A DNA stretch of 64,000 bases from assembly GCA_910574195.1 (NCBI GenBank), contig CAJTBF010000002.1, forward strand, positions 124,001 through 188,000, read 5' to 3'. Position numbers and translations under genes: made by a program. The DNA is from Lachnospiraceae bacterium (GTDB lineage Bacteria > Bacillota > Clostridia > Lachnospirales > Lachnospiraceae). The notes beneath the pieces were generated by a model. That model saw only the letters and a program-made list of their open reading frames with translations, made no database searches and was not told the DNA's origin. Position 1 is the first letter of the stretch. The number at the start of each line of letters is the position of its first letter. Positions 4,693-11,133 of the stretch are shown here, piece after piece.

Positions 4693-4766
4693 TGATTCCC
4701 TGAAAGAAGCAGCATAGGATACAAAATCCTTGAGGAAAATGTGTCAACCAATCTTGACAAAATCAT
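4693..4766 (-). repeat. Right arm of the 74-bp inverted repeat; IS left-end remnant
   Basis: The first 55 bases are a solo copy of the left end of the IS3-family element in opposite orientation to the full copy, and the remainder is relaxase coding DNA. The ABC-F module is therefore bracketed by a complete IS and a solo IS end. Confidence 0.85.
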
Positions 4767-5355
4767 GATGTGACAGCCCTCCGTTTTGTTTCAGCCGGTA
4801 TTCTTTTTTTCTTCCGCCGTAAAACTCTGTGTCTTTCAATATACTTTTCCCGTGTTCCAAACATACGGCGTCGGAGATTTCCCGCAGACGGCAGTGGTCG
4901 GAGATATGGTTTTCAAACTTCCTGCCCGTCTTAAAAGATACGGAGTTTACGACAAAATGATTATGGACATTATCTGTATTAAGGTGTGTGGTAACAACAA
5001 TTTCATACCCGCTTCCCCACATCCGCCTTGCGGTTTCTAAACCGATTTTGTGCGCTTCTTCGGGTGTGGCTTCGCCAGTTTGAAAGCTCTGGTAGCCGTG
5101 GTACGCCACATTTCCGCCCGTTTTCCCAAAGCGTTTTTTCGTTGCCGCCATACGCTCATACGCCCGTTTGGCATTGCAGTTGATGCCGCTGACATACATA
5201 CGCGCATCGGTCTTTTTGTCATTGGAAACATACCGCAGGGCGGCGTATAAATCGCTGTCCACATACTTTTTATCAATGGTTTTGTCAGGATTCTCCGCAT
5301 AGCTAATCACTTCCTTCAGCCTGTCTTTGACAGGCCAGAAGCCGGTAGTCGCCAT
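4744..5355 (-). pseudogene. Relaxase, cut off by an IS end
   Basis: The N-terminal 200 residues are a MobA/VirD2-type relaxase: MATTGFWPVKDRLKEVISYA, the GGNVAYHGYQSF catalytic-region sequence, and the metal-binding histidines in VVTTHLNTDNVHNHFVVNSV (HxDxxHxH-like). Family members run 400-500 residues or more. Here the frame hits TGA exactly at the IS terminus after HHDFVKIG, so the C-terminal half is missing. It would nick oriT and pilot the strand in transfer. The nicking fold is nearly complete, so residual activity is possible but the protein is probably non-functional. It starts directly after the mobC stop (TAAATG). Confidence 0.85.
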
Positions 5356-5658
5356 TTATACCACCAGCCTTTCACGCTTTGGCAGTATCAGTTCTTCGGT
5401 AATGCTGTCAATGAGTCCAATAATTTTTTCTTCCGTATCCGCTGTAATTTTGCCTTCGACAGCGATGCAGAGTTCGTCCAGCTTATCGTTAAAAGAGAAA
5501 AATGCTTCGGGGAGGACGGCTCTCGGCATATACCCCAAAGCCCGCTGTCGGAGATACTCTGATACGGAAAGCCCGCACTTTTTGGCGTTCTGCACTATGA
5601 TATTTTTTTCTTTTTCACTCACACGGATAAATAAATTTTTATTCCTGGCTTCGTTCAT
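5356..5658 (-). CDS. mobC: Relaxosome accessory protein MobC
   Basis: About 100 residues with the MobC hallmark block: NKNLFIRVSEKEKNIIVQNA, then KKCGLSVSEYLRQRALGY, a ribbon-helix-helix-like DNA binder that opens oriT for the relaxase. I start at ATG 5658 because AAAGGA lies nine bases upstream and the product then opens MNEARNKN as in the family. The open frame continues upstream to 5880, but that part overlies three adjacent inverted repeats and reads as oriT rather than protein. The gene is translationally coupled to the truncated relaxase. Confidence 0.8.
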   Translation of the reverse strand: MNEARNKNLFIRVSEKEKNIIVQNAKKCGLSVSEYLRQRALGYMPRAVLPEAFFSFNDKLDELCIAVEGKITADTEEKIIGLIDSITEELILPKRERLVV

Positions 5659-5689
5659 AACATCAATCCTTTCTTTGATTTCTTTAACG

Positions 5690-5762
5690 GGTTTTAGGGT
5701 GTCCCTAAAGTGAAATCGGAGCAGCCTTCCGATTTTGGTGGAAACTGTCAATACAGTTTCCC
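5690..5762. other. Candidate origin of transfer (oriT)
   Basis: Three inverted repeats follow one another in 70 bases immediately upstream of mobC: TTTAGGG/CCCTAAA with a 3-base loop (5693-5709), AATCGGA/TCCGATT with a 7-base loop (5714-5734), and GAAACTG/CAGTTTC (5741-5760). A run of short hairpins just before mobC-relaxase is the usual layout of mobilisation origins. The nick position itself cannot be named from sequence alone. Confidence 0.65.
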
Positions 5763-6353
5763 TGCTTGCTACGGTATGCGACACTCTTTCTGCCGCATAT
5801 GGTCTGTTGTTTTCCGCCGGTCTGTCTGAATGTCGTTTTTCTGTCCCTGCCCCCATCTTAGGCGGCGTTGTTTCGCTCACTCTCCGAAAAAAGAGGTTGC
5901 CGCAAAATCATATCCCATTCAGCCGGTCGTTCAATTGTAACCGGCATTTGGGCAGCAAAAAAAGCCGGCACATCAATGTGTACCGACCAATACAAAAGGA
6001 TAGACTTATCCCTTGCGGTTTTTGGTTTTACAATGATGTAACCGGCTTTGAGATTCAAAGTCGAAACTGTCTTTTACGCTTGACCTCCGCCGACAGTTCA
6101 AGGCGGCAATGGCAGCGGCGGCATTTCCTTTTCGCATACCGCAGGCGTGTACGGTGCAAAGCCGTACCCCCCCCAAAAAAATTCTGTGAAGATATGTAAT
6201 TGCTTGTGCTTCTTCTGAGAAGTATTTTATTATACTGGAGAAAACAAGCGTTTGTCAATACTTTCCGAAAAGATTTTGAATATTTTTTTCAGAAGGTGGG
6301 AATACTATTTAATTTCAAATAAAAATCATGTTCGTTTATCTTTGGATAAAAGA
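5763..6353. other. Mostly noncoding stretch left of the mobilisation genes
   Basis: The segment is GC-richer than its neighbours and carries no convincing gene. A 66-codon frame (6058 to 5858, TTG start) overlaps the oriT side but has no clear ribosome site. A homopolymer tract of eight C followed by seven A sits near 6165-6180. It may be remaining transfer-origin or element-end sequence. Confidence 0.4.
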
Positions 6354-6398
6354 GCAGAGCCGACAGGCTGTGATTGCTCACAAGCCTGCCGACTCTGC
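6354..6398. repeat. Long near-perfect hairpin
   Basis: GCAGAGCCGACAGGCTGTGA pairs with TCACAAGCCTGCCGACTCTGC around a 4-base loop, with only a bulge and a mismatch. No T-run follows, so it is not an ordinary terminator. It separates the mobilisation module from the AT-rich cargo genes and may mark an element or cassette boundary. Confidence 0.7.
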
Positions 6399-6451
6399 GC
6401 ATTATGTGTCTGGCTTTTTGGTGAAATATTGTTTGCCCGATAAATAGGAAA

Positions 6452-7123
6452 TTATAGTAAATAACCTATAGCGATGAAAAGATAGCTATATAGGTATTTC
6501 CTGTTTAATCTTAGATACATTACACCGCTAAGAACAGAAAACATCATAGTAGAAATTCCGTTCCAAATTTCAAGACCTACTCCTCTTGATACGAAATGCA
6601 TCGCTCCCCATGTCATAGCCAATATAATACCGCCAAAAGGAATTGGGCTTTCTTTTTTCAACAAGGTTTCAATCGCTTTTTGCCCATATATTATGATTAG
6701 AATAACAAGCATTACCTCAAATATATAGTATAAATACTGCGCACAAAATTGGAATACGGTTTTACCCTGTGCTTCTCCGACAATCTTTAATGTATGCCAA
6801 TCAATGAAAGTCATAATTTTGCAGCCAATGAAACAAGCAAGCGTTACAATCCAACTTTTCGAGGAAATCTTATCCCTTTTGCTTCCTCTTACTGGAAAAT
6901 GATAATGCTTCCTTGAAAAAAGCAGGAGAACACCAATGAAAAACGCCCACATAAAAACCATTATGATACAATGAATACTTCTTTGCTGCATTGTATAATT
7001 CTGTATATCTACATGCAGAAATATAACTTCAATTGCAAATATTGACAGAAGTTCAAGCATAAATGCTCCAAATGAGAGCAAGCTCAGCCATAAATATTTT
7101 GTCCATTTTACTTCTTTAACCAT
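6452..7123 (-). CDS. Multi-pass membrane protein, possibly CPBP-like protease relative
   Basis: About 223 residues with six or more hydrophobic segments (for example LWLSLLSFGAFMLELLSIFA, and VMLVILIIIYG). The late segment IILAMTWGAMHF resembles the histidine-bearing motif of CPBP (CAAX-like) intramembrane proteases, but I do not see their EExxxR motif, so the assignment is weak and the protein may be a non-catalytic relative. The ATG at 7123 is chosen because AAGGAGAGG precedes it closely; the longer frame start at 7198 lacks this. It is the third gene of an AT-rich minus-strand trio with two small hypothetical genes. Confidence 0.55.
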   Translation of the reverse strand: MVKEVKWTKYLWLSLLSFGAFMLELLSIFAIEVIFLHVDIQNYTMQQRSIHCIIMVFMWAFFIGVLLLFSRKHYHFPVRGSKRDKISSKSWIVTLACFIGCKIMTFIDWHTLKIVGEAQGKTVFQFCAQYLYYIFEVMLVILIIIYGQKAIETLLKKESPIPFGGIILAMTWGAMHFVSRGVGLEIWNGISTMMFSVLSGVMYLRLNRKYLYSYLFIAIGYLL

Positions 7124-7204
7124 TATCCTCTCCTTATGAAATTCCGATTTCTTTTTATTCTTGACTTTCCGACAAACAGGAATTTCTGTGTCAGACAAAA
7201 CGTT

Positions 7205-7579
7205 TTAATCTGACATATTATAAACAACAATCTTATAATCTCCAATAAAATTACTACATTTGGTAGCTAAAGTAAATGTATCTGAACGCTCCAAAGTGAA
7301 AAAAGTTTCTAACGCTTTTGCGCTGTCTAATGTATATACTTCATTTCCAACTGAATCATATAAGACCATATCTAAATTCCCGCTTATAATATCAGACCTG
7401 AATGAAAACTTTATTCTATCGCCTGCTTCCCCCGAAAACGAAATATCAGAAGTTGTAGTTATTTGCTCTGAATAACTTTTGCTCATATTGCCTAATACTT
7501 TGGGGCTGGTTATTAGATGGATACTTATTGCGCTGACTACTACAATGATTATAACGATTATAAAACTTGTCTTTTTCAT
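7205..7579 (-). CDS. Small membrane-anchored extracytoplasmic protein, function unknown
   Basis: About 124 residues. After MKKTSF comes one long hydrophobic stretch (IIVIIIVVVSAISIHLI) that is a signal anchor, then a soluble domain of roughly 90 residues rich in beta-forming sequence (SFSGEAGDRIKFSFRSD, DMVLYDSVGNEVYTLDS). No lipobox cysteine is present. I do not recognise the family. The start at 7579 has AAGGGA upstream. Its upstream region shares ACTGGAAAATC with the next gene upstream. Confidence 0.6.
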   Translation of the reverse strand: MKKTSFIIVIIIVVVSAISIHLITSPKVLGNMSKSYSEQITTTSDISFSGEAGDRIKFSFRSDIISGNLDMVLYDSVGNEVYTLDSAKALETFFTLERSDTFTLATKCSNFIGDYKIVVYNMSD

Positions 7580-7633
7580 CCCAATGTTCCCTTTCAAATT
7601 TCGATTTTCCAGTATGCTAAACTGGAATTGCTT

Positions 7634-7912
7634 TTATTGTAAATCATCTTTAGAAATTGCTATTGAAGGATAATGAGAAAGTTCCGTCAAATCAACATTT
7701 AGTGGCACACTATAAATCATGTAATAATTATTAGGATTGACGGCAATCAATTCATTCATTTTTTGTTCTGCTAAGTCCTTATCATTTGTAGCATACACAA
7801 CTGATACAACACCTACTTTATCATTTTCCGTCCCCTGTATATTTCCGCATAATATTAATTTTAATGGGGCGTTCCCATTCAAGCCTTGCTTAATATAGTC
7901 TTTATATTCCAT
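7634..7912 (-). CDS. Small soluble protein, function unknown
   Basis: A 92-residue protein without signal or membrane segments. It reads as one compact alpha/beta domain: LKLILCGNIQG, VGVVSVVYATNDKDLAEQKM, NNYYMIYSVPLNVDLTEL. The start at MEYKDY follows GGAGGG. The pattern resembles small immunity or accessory proteins but I cannot name a family. It is first of the three AT-rich cargo genes. Confidence 0.6.
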   Translation of the reverse strand: MEYKDYIKQGLNGNAPLKLILCGNIQGTENDKVGVVSVVYATNDKDLAEQKMNELIAVNPNNYYMIYSVPLNVDLTELSHYPSIAISKDDLQ

Positions 7913-8062
7913 AGTTTGCCCTCCATCAATTCTGATTTTCCAGTTTAACTTTTTTTCCAATTATACATGAAAACATGGGATTTTTCAATTCTCAAACTGT
8001 CTTACTGTCTTTGCTTAGGTTTGGATGGGACTGCCGCTTATTACGGAAACGCTGTCATTCAC

Positions 8063-8437
8063 CTATGAATAAATTATATCATTTTCAACAACTTCCCTTA
8101 CACGCGCCAAAATGTTATTCATCTTTTGAATCCATAAGAATTGATTTTTTGATTTCAACTGTTCTGTCACGCCTTGCCTGTCGGAATATTTCGTTGCCAG
8201 CCGAAAAAACATATCTACTGCCAGTGCGTCTACACTTGCAAGATATTCATTCAGCCTGTCGCTGGTAAAGAAGACCATATATAAAACCTTATGGTTTTGT
8301 TTCAAATACTTTGCATGTCTCTGTCCCCATACGCCGATATGCTTTTCTTTTTCGGCAGGTAAGGCGAGCACAGGCAAATAATAATCGCCAACCTTTGTAT
8401 ATGTCCCGCCCATCTATTCAAACAATGTCTTTTCCAT
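8063..8437 (-). pseudogene. tnpV: TnpV transposon protein with an early stop
   Basis: The sequence from MGGTYTKVGDYYLPVL through GVWGQRHAKYLKQNHK to the end (RVREVVENDIIYS) matches TnpV, a roughly 120-residue protein of clostridial transposons of unknown role. A well-placed GGAGG and ATG at 8437 begin MEKTLFE, the normal family start, but the eighth codon is TAG. Translation may restart at the in-frame ATG 8413, giving 116 residues, so the gene could still be partly expressed. Confidence 0.75.
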
Positions 8438-8660: not shown

Positions 8661-9464
8661 TTGTATTCCAATAATGTTTTCAAATTATCTCCTTATGTGG
8701 TGACAGCCTTTACGGTTTTTCTTTTGACGAAAGAGGAATATGAAAACTTGAAATCACAATTTGTGATTTCAAGTTTGGAGGATGATAATGGATATGGCGG
8801 ACGTAGGAAATTGCCCTTTGTTTTTACAGAACAAGGAATTGCAATGCTTTCTGCGGTTTTGCGTAGTGATGTTGCTATCCGAGTAAGCATTAGGATTATG
8901 GAAACTTTTGTGGAGATGCGGAAGTATATGGCAAATACATCTCTGTTGTATGAGCGGTTAAATGCAATAGAGGTTCGCCAGATAAATTACCAGACGGAAA
9001 CCGACGAGCGTTTTGAGAGAGTTTTTGAGTACATATCCGAACATGAGGAATCCAGTCAAAAAGTATTTTTTGACGGACAGATTTACGATGCGTTCAGTCT
9101 GATAGTAAATCTAATTCAAAAAGCAGAGAAAGAAATCACTCTGATAGACGGATATGTAGATGTTGGTACATTGAATCTGCTTTCAAAGAAAAAGTCTGAT
9201 GTTGCAGTAACTATTTATACGCAGAAACAGACGAAGCTAACGAAAGTCGATGTTAAGAATTTTAATGCACAGTACCCGACATTGAAGATAAAATATACCA
9301 AAGTATTCCATGACAGGTTTTTGATTCTTGACCGAACAATAGCCTATCATGTAGGAGCGTCTTTGAAAGATGCGGGAAAAAAGTGTTTTGGAATCAATCT
9401 AATTCAAGATGCAGGCATCATCAAGGACATCCTGCAAAGGTTGGAACTGGAAACGGAGAAATAA
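8661..9464 (+). CDS. ORF6N-domain protein with PLD-like C-terminus, 5' end replaced
   Basis: From residue 23 the protein matches the second half of an ORF6N phage/element regulatory domain: TKEEYENLKSQF, KLPFVFTEQGIAMLSAVLRS, RIMETFVEMRKYM. After a coiled coil (residues about 95-130) a C-terminal domain carries FHDRFLILDRTIAYHVGASL, an H-x-R-x4-D pattern like degenerate phospholipase-D-type nucleases. The first half of the ORF6N domain is missing. Upstream, the open frame encodes two hydrophobic segments (FLLFTLAFAFAIAHK and VVTAFTVFLL) from some other membrane gene, so this is a fusion made by deletion. A 33-bp perfect palindrome lies within its coding sequence. It is probably not functional as an ORF6N regulator. 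Confidence 0.7.
   Translation: MYSNNVFKLSPYVVTAFTVFLLTKEEYENLKSQFVISSLEDDNGYGGRRKLPFVFTEQGIAMLSAVLRSDVAIRVSIRIMETFVEMRKYMANTSLLYERLNAIEVRQINYQTETDERFERVFEYISEHEESSQKVFFDGQIYDAFSLIVNLIQKAEKEITLIDGYVDVGTLNLLSKKKSDVAVTIYTQKQTKLTKVDVKNFNAQYPTLKIKYTKVFHDRFLILDRTIAYHVGASLKDAGKKCFGINLIQDAGIIKDILQRLELETEK
8744..8776. repeat. ORF6N palindrome 1 (inside gene, 33 bp perfect)
   Basis: Arms AAACTTGAAATCACAA and its exact complement flank one central T. It encodes NLKSQFVISSL of the ORF6N domain. Confidence 0.95.
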
Positions 9465-9475
9465 GAAGTTCTTTG

Positions 9476-9494
9476 AGGTCACAATTTGTGACCT
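9476..9494. repeat. ORF6N palindrome 2 (extragenic)
   Basis: AGGTCACAA T TTGTGACCT, perfect, 12 bases after the ORF6N-PLD stop codon. Read in frame it gives LRSQFVT then a stop. Confidence 0.95.
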
Positions 9495-9528
9495 AAGAAA
9501 AATGCAAAGAGAAATGAGAAACTCTTTT

Positions 9529-9547
9529 AGGTCGCAATTTGCGACCT
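9529..9547. repeat. ORF6N palindrome 3 (extragenic)
   Basis: AGGTCGCAA T TTGCGACCT, perfect. In frame it gives FRSQFATLEKMQTA then a stop. Palindromes 2 and 3 are both followed by a similar A-rich tail ending AATGCAAA. Confidence 0.95.
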
Positions 9548-9649
9548 TAGAAAAAATGCAAACAGCTTAAACTATTCTGGGATTAGTTGTGAAATGCAGG
9601 TATTAATGGGGAAAGTTTTTACAGCATAACATTTTCCTAAATTCAAGCC

Positions 9650-10000
9650 CCTTGCTAATCGCCTGCTAAGAGGAGCATCTAAAACGCCTTAAAACTAGCA
9701 GCCACAGGTCGGTACGAGATAACATTCTGAATCCGTGACAAGCAAGGAAATAAAGGGATTAGATAACACTAAGAGGGAGCTGCCTACTGGCAAATGGTTC
9801 TACTCCTAAGCGGTAGGTCGGAGGTTCAAATCCTCTTAGCGACGCTGAAAACATTGATTTTTCAAGGTTTTCGGCGTTTCTCATTTTCCGAATAAATTTG
9901 AACTCGTAGCAATATCCGATTAGCAGGAGCGGTTTTTGCTAATCAAAATGCCTTTCCTGTTAATCGGAGCAAAAATCGTGCTAAAAATCCTGCTAATTGA
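9650..10000. other. Attachment-site region with repeated CTGCTAAT motifs
   Basis: Within 350 bases the motif Y-TGCTAAT (allowing single changes) occurs about seven times: near 9652, 9663, 9918 (inverted), 9937, 9957, 9979 and 9990. A tRNA 3' half and an integrase remnant lie in and beside it. Clusters of short repeats around a tRNA fragment are what the arm sites of a tyrosine integrase look like. Confidence 0.5.
9803..9844 (+). tRNA. 3' half of a tRNA-Arg(CCU), likely att scar
   Basis: From the anticodon loop CTCCTAA onward the sequence follows a tRNA: 3' anticodon stem GCGGT, variable loop AGGTC, T-arm GGAGG-TTCAAAT-CCTCT, and acceptor strand TAGCGAC. The 5' half is absent: the bases before the loop (TTCTA) cannot pair with GCGGT, and no GTCGCTA acceptor partner lies upstream. 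A break exactly at the anticodon loop is the usual crossover point of tRNA-targeting integrases. A hairpin CGCTGAAAAC/GTTTTCGGCG follows, resembling the tRNA's terminator. Confidence 0.6.
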
Positions 10001-10112
10001 AAAGGCAAAAGTTACTCGTTCAAAGAACTTTTTTTGGTGTTACATAGTCCCGTACATTTGATGATAGTGACGTCTGTTTATATAATGAAAACAAAAAAGG
10101 ACGGTGATATAT

Positions 10113-10424
10113 ATGAGAGAAAAGAAAAATCATTTGTATGTGGACAATGGGGAACGAAGCATTAAGAATGATTGTGCTTATATCTTTGTGAATAAGGAGC
10201 TGCAACGTGTCAACCGCAATGCTCTGGAACAGTTAAGCGAAAAGGGCGTAATGTTCAAGTTCCCGCCTGCGGTGGCAAGCACCCATACCGCTCTGGTACT
10301 GAAAGAGTCAAAGACCAGTATCCGAAAGATTTTCCTGCCTAAGACGGTTGCAGAAATGCTTCTGAAACTGCTTGCCAATCCGGAGATGGCGGCGTTGTTG
10401 AAATCGCTTGCAAAGAACTTATAA
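10113..10424 (+). pseudogene. Tyrosine integrase fragment
   Basis: After about 18 unrelated residues, the product reads AYIFVNKELQRVNRNALEQL, later TALVLKESKTSIRKIFLPKT then VAEMLLKLL. This is a stretch of the core domain of clostridial tyrosine recombinases (the beta-sheet region before the catalytic HxxR/Y). The N-terminal arm-binding and SAM-like domains and all the C-terminal catalytic motifs are missing; full proteins run about 400 residues. The ATG at 10113 with AAGG upstream may have come from another gene. It lies next to the tRNA scar, as an element's integrase would. Confidence 0.65.
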
Positions 10425-10530
10425 TCATGTAGGGCAATTCTCAGGAAAGGAATTGCTCTTTTAATATGTAGATTTATATAGTAAAAAATATGGGGCATGG
10501 TATAATGAAATTGTCATGAAAAAGCATTTG

Positions 10531-10549
10531 AGGTCGCAAATTGTGACCT
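10531..10549. repeat. ORF6N palindrome 4 (extragenic)
   Basis: AGGTCGCAA A TTGTGACCT, one G-T mismatch. In frame: HLRSQIVTLKQMIHKT then a stop. Confidence 0.9.
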
Positions 10550-10567
10550 TAAAGCAAATGATACATA

Positions 10568-10600
10568 AAACTTGAAATTTCAAATTGTGATTTCAAGTTT
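10568..10600. repeat. ORF6N palindrome 5 (extragenic, 33 bp)
   Basis: AAACTTGAAATTTCAA A TTGTGATTTCAAGTTT, two mismatched pairs. The right arm is identical to that of palindrome 1 two kilobases away. In frame: LKFQIVISSLKDTKISI then a stop. Confidence 0.9.
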
Positions 10601-10621
10601 AAAAGATACGAAAATATCAAT

Positions 10622-10649
10622 TTAAGATGCCAGATTGGAATCTCAAGTT
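10622..10649. repeat. ORF6N palindrome 6 (extragenic, degenerate)
   Basis: An imperfect version (TTAAGATGCCAG / TTGGAATCTCAAG, about 8 of 11 pairs). In frame it still gives NLRCQIGISSF then a stop. Confidence 0.6.
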
Positions 10650-10666
10650 TTTGAAAGGATATAAAT

Positions 10667-11133
10667 ATGGATAAAGCAGAGAGCAAACTGCGTTAGTGAA
10701 AACAGATGAGCAAACACAGGTAAAAACTGTCGGAACAGCTCAATTTGATATTAAAAGAATGATTTATGTTGTTCGTAATCAGCAGGTTATGATAGATAGT
10801 AATTTAGCGATGCTGTATCAAGTGGAAACTAAGGTTTTTAACCAAGCAGTAAAAAGGAATATTGCTCGATTCCCCGATAATTTTAGATTTCAACTTACTA
10901 AAGACGAGTATGCGGTTTTAAGGTCACAAGTTGTGACCTTAAACGAGAATGTAGGCAGAGGTACGCATCGCAAATATTTACCTTATGTTTTTACAGAACA
11001 AGGAATCGCAATGTTGTCGGCTGTCCTAAGAAGTGATACTGCAATTCAAATTAGTATTAACATTATGAATGCTTTTGTGGAAATGCGGCGTTTTTTACAG
11101 AATAGATTATTTCTTTGTTTATGCAAAATGTGA
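10667..11133 (+). pseudogene. ORF6N-domain protein, frameshifted start and truncated end
   Basis: The main frame (from GTG 10696, 145 residues) carries a complete ORF6N domain: FDIKRMIYVVRNQQVMIDSN, LAMLYQVETKVFNQAVKRNI, RFPDNFRFQLTKDEYAVLRS and YVFTEQGIAMLSAVLRSDTA. The better start, ATG 10667 behind AAAGG, reads MDKAESKLR and stops out of frame by one base. The C-terminus ends abruptly after FVEMRRFLQN with a few non-family residues, so any effector domain is lost. A 27-bp palindrome lies at the same codons as in the other ORF6N gene. Confidence 0.75.
10917..10943. repeat. ORF6N palindrome 7 (inside gene, 27 bp perfect)
   Basis: TTTAAGGTCACAA G TTGTGACCTTAAA, encoding VLRSQVVTLN at the position equivalent to palindrome 1. 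Confidence 0.95.

Follow-up and report, generated by a model that had tools for sequence, protein, structure and literature searches.

A symmetric DNA dyad within the coding sequence of ORF6N genes as a putative autoregulatory operator

We analysed a 64,000-nucleotide (nt) stretch of the genome of a Lachnospiraceae bacterium (assembly GCA_910574195.1, contig CAJTBF010000002.1, positions 124,001 to 188,000; hereafter the window), in which DNA palindromes are found in and around two genes coding for ORF6N domain proteins. An earlier note on this DNA had described the palindromes at this locus; going beyond that view, almost all members of the ORF6N family share the coding palindrome. This dyad consists of two 13-base pair (bp) arms around a single central position, 27 bp in all. 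It occupies a set place in the domain, varies in ways that keep its symmetry, is read in a second frame in some genes, has a sharply limited length, recurs in additional copies 5' of the genes and is linked to ORF6N genes across genomes. We propose, with moderate confidence, that the dyad is an autoregulatory operator embedded in the ORF6N coding sequence and read by the gene's own product, such that autorepression would travel with the gene.

ORF6N loci were collected from 79 named genome contigs, 5 viral contigs, further genomes and plasmids, yielding 268 distinct domain sequences. A selection of the plasmid hits was included (5 of 22, with no Legionella, 7 of 35 and 4 of 13), along with one of 34 Escherichia coli hits. 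A class 2 ORF6N query had no match in the viral contigs, and five records of the phage collection gave a match. We take the source phyla to include Bacillota, Bacteroidota, Riflebacteria, Spirochaetota, Campylobacterota and Fusobacteriota. After thresholds of E-value 1e-25 and 80 residues, 240 of the 268 domains were retained, 238 of them with sufficient upstream sequence. The best dyad with a 13-1-13 architecture was scored between +130 and +260 nt of the ORF6N domain in each gene. At least 11 of the 13 pairs were present in 219 of the 238 genes, 10 pairs in 12 genes and at most 9 in the remaining 7, whereas Markov shuffles predict 2.0 genes with at least 11 pairs. Control stretches of the same genes reached that threshold in 2/238, 3/229, 3/171 and 2/153 cases. 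The seven low scorers include plasmid genes of Haliovirga and Alistipes. The low score of L010, also one of the seven, appears to stem from a register error; in a separate reading, the dyad of this gene scores 10/13.

The codons were analysed in a set of 145 genes with the core motif (145 of 187 unique 33-mers; 76 genes fell outside the first motif expression). As this set was chosen on the encoded peptide and the larger one was not, 219/238 is the fairer figure for the prevalence of the dyad. The mean symmetry in the core-motif set is 12.17 of 13 pairs, compared with 5.47 when codons were redrawn for the same proteins (maximum 5.77 in 300 draws), and 45.5% of the dyads are perfect, versus none in the synonymous redraws. 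Variation preserves the symmetry. Codon pairs at the S/V position are complementary in 121 of the 145 genes, mostly as TCA-GTG (S-V, 68 genes) or TCG-GCG (S-A, 38 genes) and more rarely as C-G, F-G or Y-G, with C-V as the commonest exception (7 genes). Those at the R/T position are complementary in 123 genes, with AGG-ACC (R-T) in 82, AAG-ACT (K-T) in 21, AAA-ATT (K-I) in 8 and AGA-ATC (R-I) in 8. Further pairs are L-S (TTG-TCA, 76 genes) and L-L (TTA-TTA, 34 genes). The dyad is also retained under other peptides, namely LRSKNLTSSW, LRSKFSTAN, LRYKNCTAN, MVSQNVIPSK and NSSRSQIATLKN.

Sorted by the codon phase of their centre, 213 of 220 dyads are in phase 0 and 7 in phase 1, with 46 distinct half-site octamers overall. 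Four of the seven phase-1 genes (ELVTNCDRF and kin) harbour the 17-bp core GGTCRCAANTTGYGACC, which codes for LRSQ elsewhere. The length of the dyad is sharply defined: in 124 of the 145 genes kept after thinning, pairing is 0.82-1.00 at offsets 1 to 13, drops to 0.48 at offset 14 and is at the null level by offset 16. Among 21 independent pairs of closely related genes, there are nine one-sided changes in the dyad and no two-sided ones. Because these changes are one-sided and never double, the comparison points to a 27-bp dyad held by purifying selection rather than to a copying artefact. Upkeep by template switching, in which one arm would serve as the template for its partner, is not supported by these counts.

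The two ORF6N genes of the window and their seven dyads are as follows (positions are those of the window; scores are paired positions out of 13).

8661..9464, plus strand: ORF6N gene 1, a 267-residue frame lacking the first half of the ORF6N domain (open reading frame and PF10543 match)
8747..8773, no strand: in-gene dyad of gene 1, centre 8760, 13-1-13, 13/13, coding for NLKSQFVISSL
9472..9498, no strand: extragenic dyad directly after the stop of gene 1, centre 9485, 11/13
9525..9551, no strand: extragenic dyad, 53 nt further than the preceding copy, centre 9538, 11/13
10527..10553, no strand: extragenic dyad 5' of gene 2, centre 10540, 11/13
10571..10597, no strand: extragenic dyad 5' of gene 2, centre 10584, 11/13
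10621..10647, no strand: extragenic quasi-dyad 5' of gene 2, centre 10634, 9/13
10696..11133, plus strand: ORF6N gene 2, 145 residues, with a full ORF6N domain and a short C-terminal part
10917..10943, no strand: in-gene dyad of gene 2, centre 10930, 13-1-13, perfect (13/13), coding for VLRSQVVTLN

This confirms the earlier description of seven palindromes in 2.2 kb, two of them perfect and inside the two ORF6N genes. Both perfect dyads are at the same position of the domain; of the five extragenic ones, two follow gene 1 and three precede gene 2. The arms of the gene 1 dyad extend to 16 bp without mismatch, making it perfect across 33 bp (8744-8776); the five extragenic copies are imperfect across 13-bp arms, two of them being perfect across 9. 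The quasi-dyad at 10621..10647 adjoins a GAAAGGA stretch that resembles a ribosome-binding site by eye and is followed by an ATG at 10668. This ATG starts a frame of only nine codons.

In the earlier note, the finding that extragenic copies also read as LRSQ-type peptides had been taken to argue against simple operators. The readings are real, but they carry no independent information, because a shared dyad in the same frame automatically gives the same peptide, and LRSQ is read on both strands. The argument against operators fails, as translating the palindrome in frame is all that it takes to obtain the peptide. The same peptides are what would suggest that the extragenic copies are silent cassettes swapping the LRSQ segment with the gene through gene conversion. 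However, the extragenic copies of the window have only 27-41 nt in common with the gene copies and no two-sided change was seen in the 21 close pairs, which makes this proposal of the note hardly credible.

We then searched for the palindrome at the genome level. Using the pattern RRRTCRCAAWTTGYGAYYY with up to two mismatches, eight sites were found in the whole 3.96-Mb host genome, six of them in the 2.2-kb cluster. With no or one mismatch, all five sites are at the window locus, and the reversed-pattern control gave none. Within the window, up to three mismatches gave eight matches (six in the cluster), compared with 2.54 (standard deviation (SD) 1.71) in shuffled sequences. The looser pattern RRNTNNCAAWTTGNNANYY detected seven sites in the host genome, five at the locus and two elsewhere (none for the control); it was dropped as too unspecific across 19 genomes. 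A survey of the host's family (397 genomes) gave 72 sites, spread over 47 genomes; the reversed pattern occurs in three genomes. Of the 72 sites, 54 are within 2 kb of an ORF6N hit. Both ORF6N and a site are present in 35 genomes, ORF6N only in 53, a site only in 12 and neither in 297, i.e. sites occur in 35 of 88 genomes with ORF6N versus 12 of 309 without (Fisher p 2e-16). The proposed link between the palindromes and ORF6N genes is borne out by these figures. At L290, L293 and L302, from genomes in which ORF6N gave no hit, palindromes sharing this core were seen by eye within terminator-like hairpins.

Additional copies are frequent around the genes. In and around the 240 genes, we counted 370 palindromes with arms of at least 10, against 28 in shuffles. 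For upstream quasi-dyads, the count is 115 (20.8 expected), and 88 of the 238 genes have them, for the most part 60-160 nt 5' of the domain; quasi-dyads after the stop number 42 (12.8 expected) and are found in 33 of 229 genes, and a control stretch gave 20 (13.4 expected). Upstream dyads with at least 11/13 pairs are present in 68 of 238 genes, compared with 7.7 expected. The upstream and in-gene variants of a locus agree at 5.26 of 8 variable positions, versus 4.38 (SD 0.24) after permutation (p 0.0004; 31 pairs from 26 loci). In a group of related Lachnospiraceae genes, the stretch that separates a TATACT box from the ribosome-binding site contains, by eye, three quasi-dyads, and dyads also follow the stop. 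In several pairs of related Lachnospiraceae loci, homology extends from ~284 nt before the domain to 33-41 nt past the stop; in other pairs it continues beyond that point.

In the mechanism that we propose, the reader of the 27-bp dyad would be a protein, most likely a dimer of the ORF6N protein itself. Its binding within the gene and at the dyads close to the 5' end would lower the expression of that gene. As the neighbours of ORF6N genes are diverse, an operator placed within the coding sequence would move along with the gene wherever it lands, and this mobility may be the reason for its placement. Autoregulatory binding sites were among the options of the earlier note, and they are supported as far as sequence allows.

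The strongest rival of this operator hypothesis is that the dyad acts as a hairpin, either a stem-loop of the messenger RNA, in the 5' untranslated region, the coding sequence or the 3' untranslated region, or an extruded DNA hairpin recognized by its structure. The maintenance of symmetry at variable positions, the presence of copies before the ribosome-binding site, in the gene and after it (by eye) and the mixture of variants within a locus would all suit a hairpin. Mismatches were read on the coding strand and sorted into G-T, which RNA can tolerate, and its mirror class, A-C. The in-gene copies give a G-T to A-C ratio of 21:28 after thinning and 26:38 before, the extragenic copies 18:12 and the DinD genes described below 9:4; the overall numbers, 48 versus 44, reveal no wobble excess. 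The relaxed 5' set leans to G-T (41 versus 25, p 0.06), which speaks for a hairpin and against the operator hypothesis in that an RNA role is conceivable there. Against the hairpin stand the absence of a G-T excess in the coding copies, the sharp limit at 13-14 bp and the agreement between upstream and in-gene variants beyond permutation. From the mismatch classes, we favour a DNA-level role of the coding copy, and either role may apply to those at the 5' end. On balance, we consider the hairpin possible but unlikely.

The closest known systems include ORF6N and Bro-N domain proteins, DinD and phage antirepressors (PF10543, PF02498). The genes analysed here are members of these groups, assigned by profile match or by annotation together with similarity. 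At least 11/13 pairs were found in 12 of 23 Bro-N genes (4.3% in the null), at residues 63-92, and in 12 of 24 by a second measure; DinD genes account for six of these 12 and belong to both sets, and the other six are not DinD. Of four Bro-N genes from other groups, three have an in-gene dyad, and that of Chlorohelix has an upstream one. Among viral ORF6N-like genes, 17 of 59 have such dyads (versus 2%), often ~30 nt before LYLWTEKG; the 59 are the distinct genes of 80 loci, near-identical members included. We used Rha genes (Phage_pRha, PF09669) as an outgroup. None of 16 reached 11/13 pairs, and 7 of 16 reached at least 10/13 (20% in the null); the mean arm of 18 genes is 6.00 versus 6.21.

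The DinD genes of the host family all harbour an in-gene dyad with at least 10/13 pairs (35 of 35 scored), and 24 of 30 have at least 11/13 (versus 0.7%). In 33 of the 35, the dyad is in register on the HF..V.KM codons, as in CCATTTTGCTGACGTCAGCAAAATGG; L478 and L480 are out of register. Symmetry is 10.64/12 versus 6.70. Codon pairs such as GCT-AGC (9), CGT-ACG (7) and GTT-AAC (3) reveal the same covariation as in ORF6N genes. Repeated sequences were counted once in this scoring, which left out 18 viral loci for which the search expression was too narrow. Across 24 viral loci with 17 distinct starts, every distinct DinD start has at least 11/13 pairs; L504 was matched from mid-gene only. The in-gene and -35 dyads of L433 have a common 16-bp core, and its upstream dyad is directly 5' of AGAGGAGG, while L453 has a perfect upstream dyad and an in-gene dyad of 10/13. 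A site that may be inside the gene, upstream of it or both is the behaviour expected of an operator. The dyads of Bro-N and DinD genes are unrelated in sequence to those of ORF6N genes, with a similar position as judged by residue numbers.

Two side observations concern these relatives. On an Arcobacter cloacae plasmid (L446), a type I-B CRISPR (clustered regularly interspaced short palindromic repeats) locus has a dyad-bearing Bro-N gene, with the dyad in its coding sequence, placed between cas4 and cas1b. Two viral DinD genes, L484 and L490, differ in the segment right after the dyad and are near-identical in the remainder, as if recombined there.

These comparisons bear on another option of the earlier note, a miniature palindromic element that inserts into ORF6N genes or spreads from them. 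In its favour, copies have multiplied locally, L054, L066, L072 and L074 have a second in-frame dyad, and palindromes also occur in genomes without ORF6N hits. Nevertheless, DinD homologues with and without the dyad are of equal length over HF..V.KM and align without a gap (by eye), and the Bro-N and DinD dyads have unrelated sequences at a similar position. Furthermore, the sites are not dispersed, given that 54 of 72 are at ORF6N hits and that those with no or one mismatch in the host genome are all at the locus. Such an element is very improbable.

Several results weigh against the operator hypothesis. Most genes are devoid of a strong upstream dyad, since only the 68 of 238 mentioned above reach 11/13, and promoter scans near the dyads were at chance level. 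Between the downstream and in-gene copies of a locus, there is no agreement beyond permutation (4.50 versus 4.31, p 0.29, 18 pairs). By a cruder similarity measure the upstream effect is weak (13.10 versus 12.52, SD 0.28), and there is no downstream effect (11.59 versus 11.50). Different variants can coexist at one locus, with four in a row at L277, and some in-gene dyads exceed what a dimer would need, such as that of L134 with 21-nt arms and one mismatch. In 4 of the 19 genomes searched with the looser pattern (G824, G828, G830 and G833), the count did not exceed that of the reversed control. Eighteen of the 72 sites in the host's family are away from ORF6N hits, most of them without explanation: L294 and L306 give a weak ORF6N profile match, L296 and L307 resemble ORF6N remnants by eye, L295 looks like chance, and L290, L293 and L302 are the terminator-like hairpins mentioned above. 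Lastly, among nine dinD genes from other groups only two have an in-gene dyad, and that of Thiothrix has an upstream one only. In E. coli, Thiothrix and Streptococcus, the F..V.K core of DinD is kept although the dyad is absent there, so protein constraint also contributes.

It might also be that another factor, such as a recombinase, a nuclease or a rival regulator, targets the dyad, and that the gene keeps it for mobility or because related genes exclude one another. Several ORF6N frames stop near the dyad (L006, L095, L097, L275 and L277, by eye), and the flanking genes are diverse. In addition, PADLOC assigned the proteins of L061, L288 and window 10696-11130 to the phage-defence candidate PDC-S05, which was the only strong match. 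However, no fixed partner gene was found among 129 flanking open reading frames (of 148 at 79 loci, 19 being left out), of which five match phage integrases and five resolvases, and dyads are near-universal in ORF6N genes irrespective of context. We regard this explanation as improbable. As an example of a neighbourhood, the ORF6N gene of a Treponema plasmid (L285) lies between genes for a DNA methyltransferase and a winged-helix protein on one side and, on the other, a restriction specificity gene, behind which stands one with a Fic annotation.

Intragenic operators have precedents in lacO2 in lacZ and the second purR operator in the purR coding sequence. Similar to those, the ORF6N site would be a dyad operator within a coding sequence, possibly cooperating with one near the promoter. 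Unlike them, it is near-universal in its family across phyla and on the same codons, its amino acid pairs change to preserve symmetry, and the same core DNA is used in a second frame. Rickettsia palindromic elements are repeats inserted into unrelated coding genes. The likeness to these is that palindromic DNA is translated as part of a protein; the ORF6N dyad differs in that it occupies one place of one family with no visible insertion. We found no relevant account of palindromes in ORF6N, KilA-N, Bro-N or DinD genes or of autoregulatory intragenic operators in the literature, as judged by titles and the starts of abstracts. The family-wide fixation, the forced amino acid pairs and the second frame are unexpected to a specialist.

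If the operator hypothesis is true, selection at the DNA level for a symmetric site dictates amino acid pairs in a regulator family. Conserved peptides such as LRSQ(F/I)(V/A)T would then be, at least in part, an operator read as protein, and the conservation of motifs should not be taken here as a sign of protein function alone. The gene's own sequence would also predict a candidate binding site for uncharacterized ORF6N, Bro-N and DinD proteins, including phage-encoded members and a phage-defence candidate, and would thereby open this family, whose function is unknown, to direct tests.

In a model of the L061 protein made with AlphaFold (mean predicted local distance difference test 83, predicted template modelling score 0.45), the dyad-encoded residues 84-93 fall within a coil spanning residues 84-103, between a short helix and the strand preceding FTEQG, with block confidences of 72 and 53. 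The loop at the dyad codons may tolerate residues dictated by symmetric DNA. The two in-frame dyads of L054, L066, L072 and L074 are within the same loop. A bolder version of the operator hypothesis, which we consider quite doubtful, is that of a self-addressing gene throughout the superfamily. The dyad-encoded loop would help to read that same dyad, so that one set of nucleotides would be both the site and the peptide that recognizes it, and the two would change in step. With an address of its own, a gene would recognize itself and close kin at any place where it lands, and symmetric changes would diversify its specificity. For mobile genes, this would be a device of incompatibility or kin exclusion.

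Both ORF6N genes of the window look incomplete, gene 1 without the first half of the domain and gene 2 stopping at 145 residues, whereas 63 relatives are 254-350 residues long. Gene 1 matches Pfam PF10543 at profile positions 44-86 only (E-value 9.8e-11, 42.2 bits) and gene 2 at positions 2-86 (E-value 3.3e-33, 114.3 bits), with a curated cut-off of 27.8 bits; they are the only PF10543 matches in the host genome (80 contigs). The C-terminal region of gene 1 may be PLD-like; relatives gave one weak profile match to 1byr (E-value 0.23).

A stretch resembling the 3' end of a transfer RNA (tRNA) is found 3' of gene 1 (9810-9834), where ARAGORN called no tRNA. It recurs near ORF6N in 7 of 505 loci, including L020 (from the genome of L154), L022, L027 and L296, with the window's own locus accounting for two of the seven. 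This stretch is possibly the remnant of an attachment site. Upstream of gene 1, the 4744-8413 region harbours mobile-element genes for a relaxase, a NikA-like mobilization protein and TnpV.

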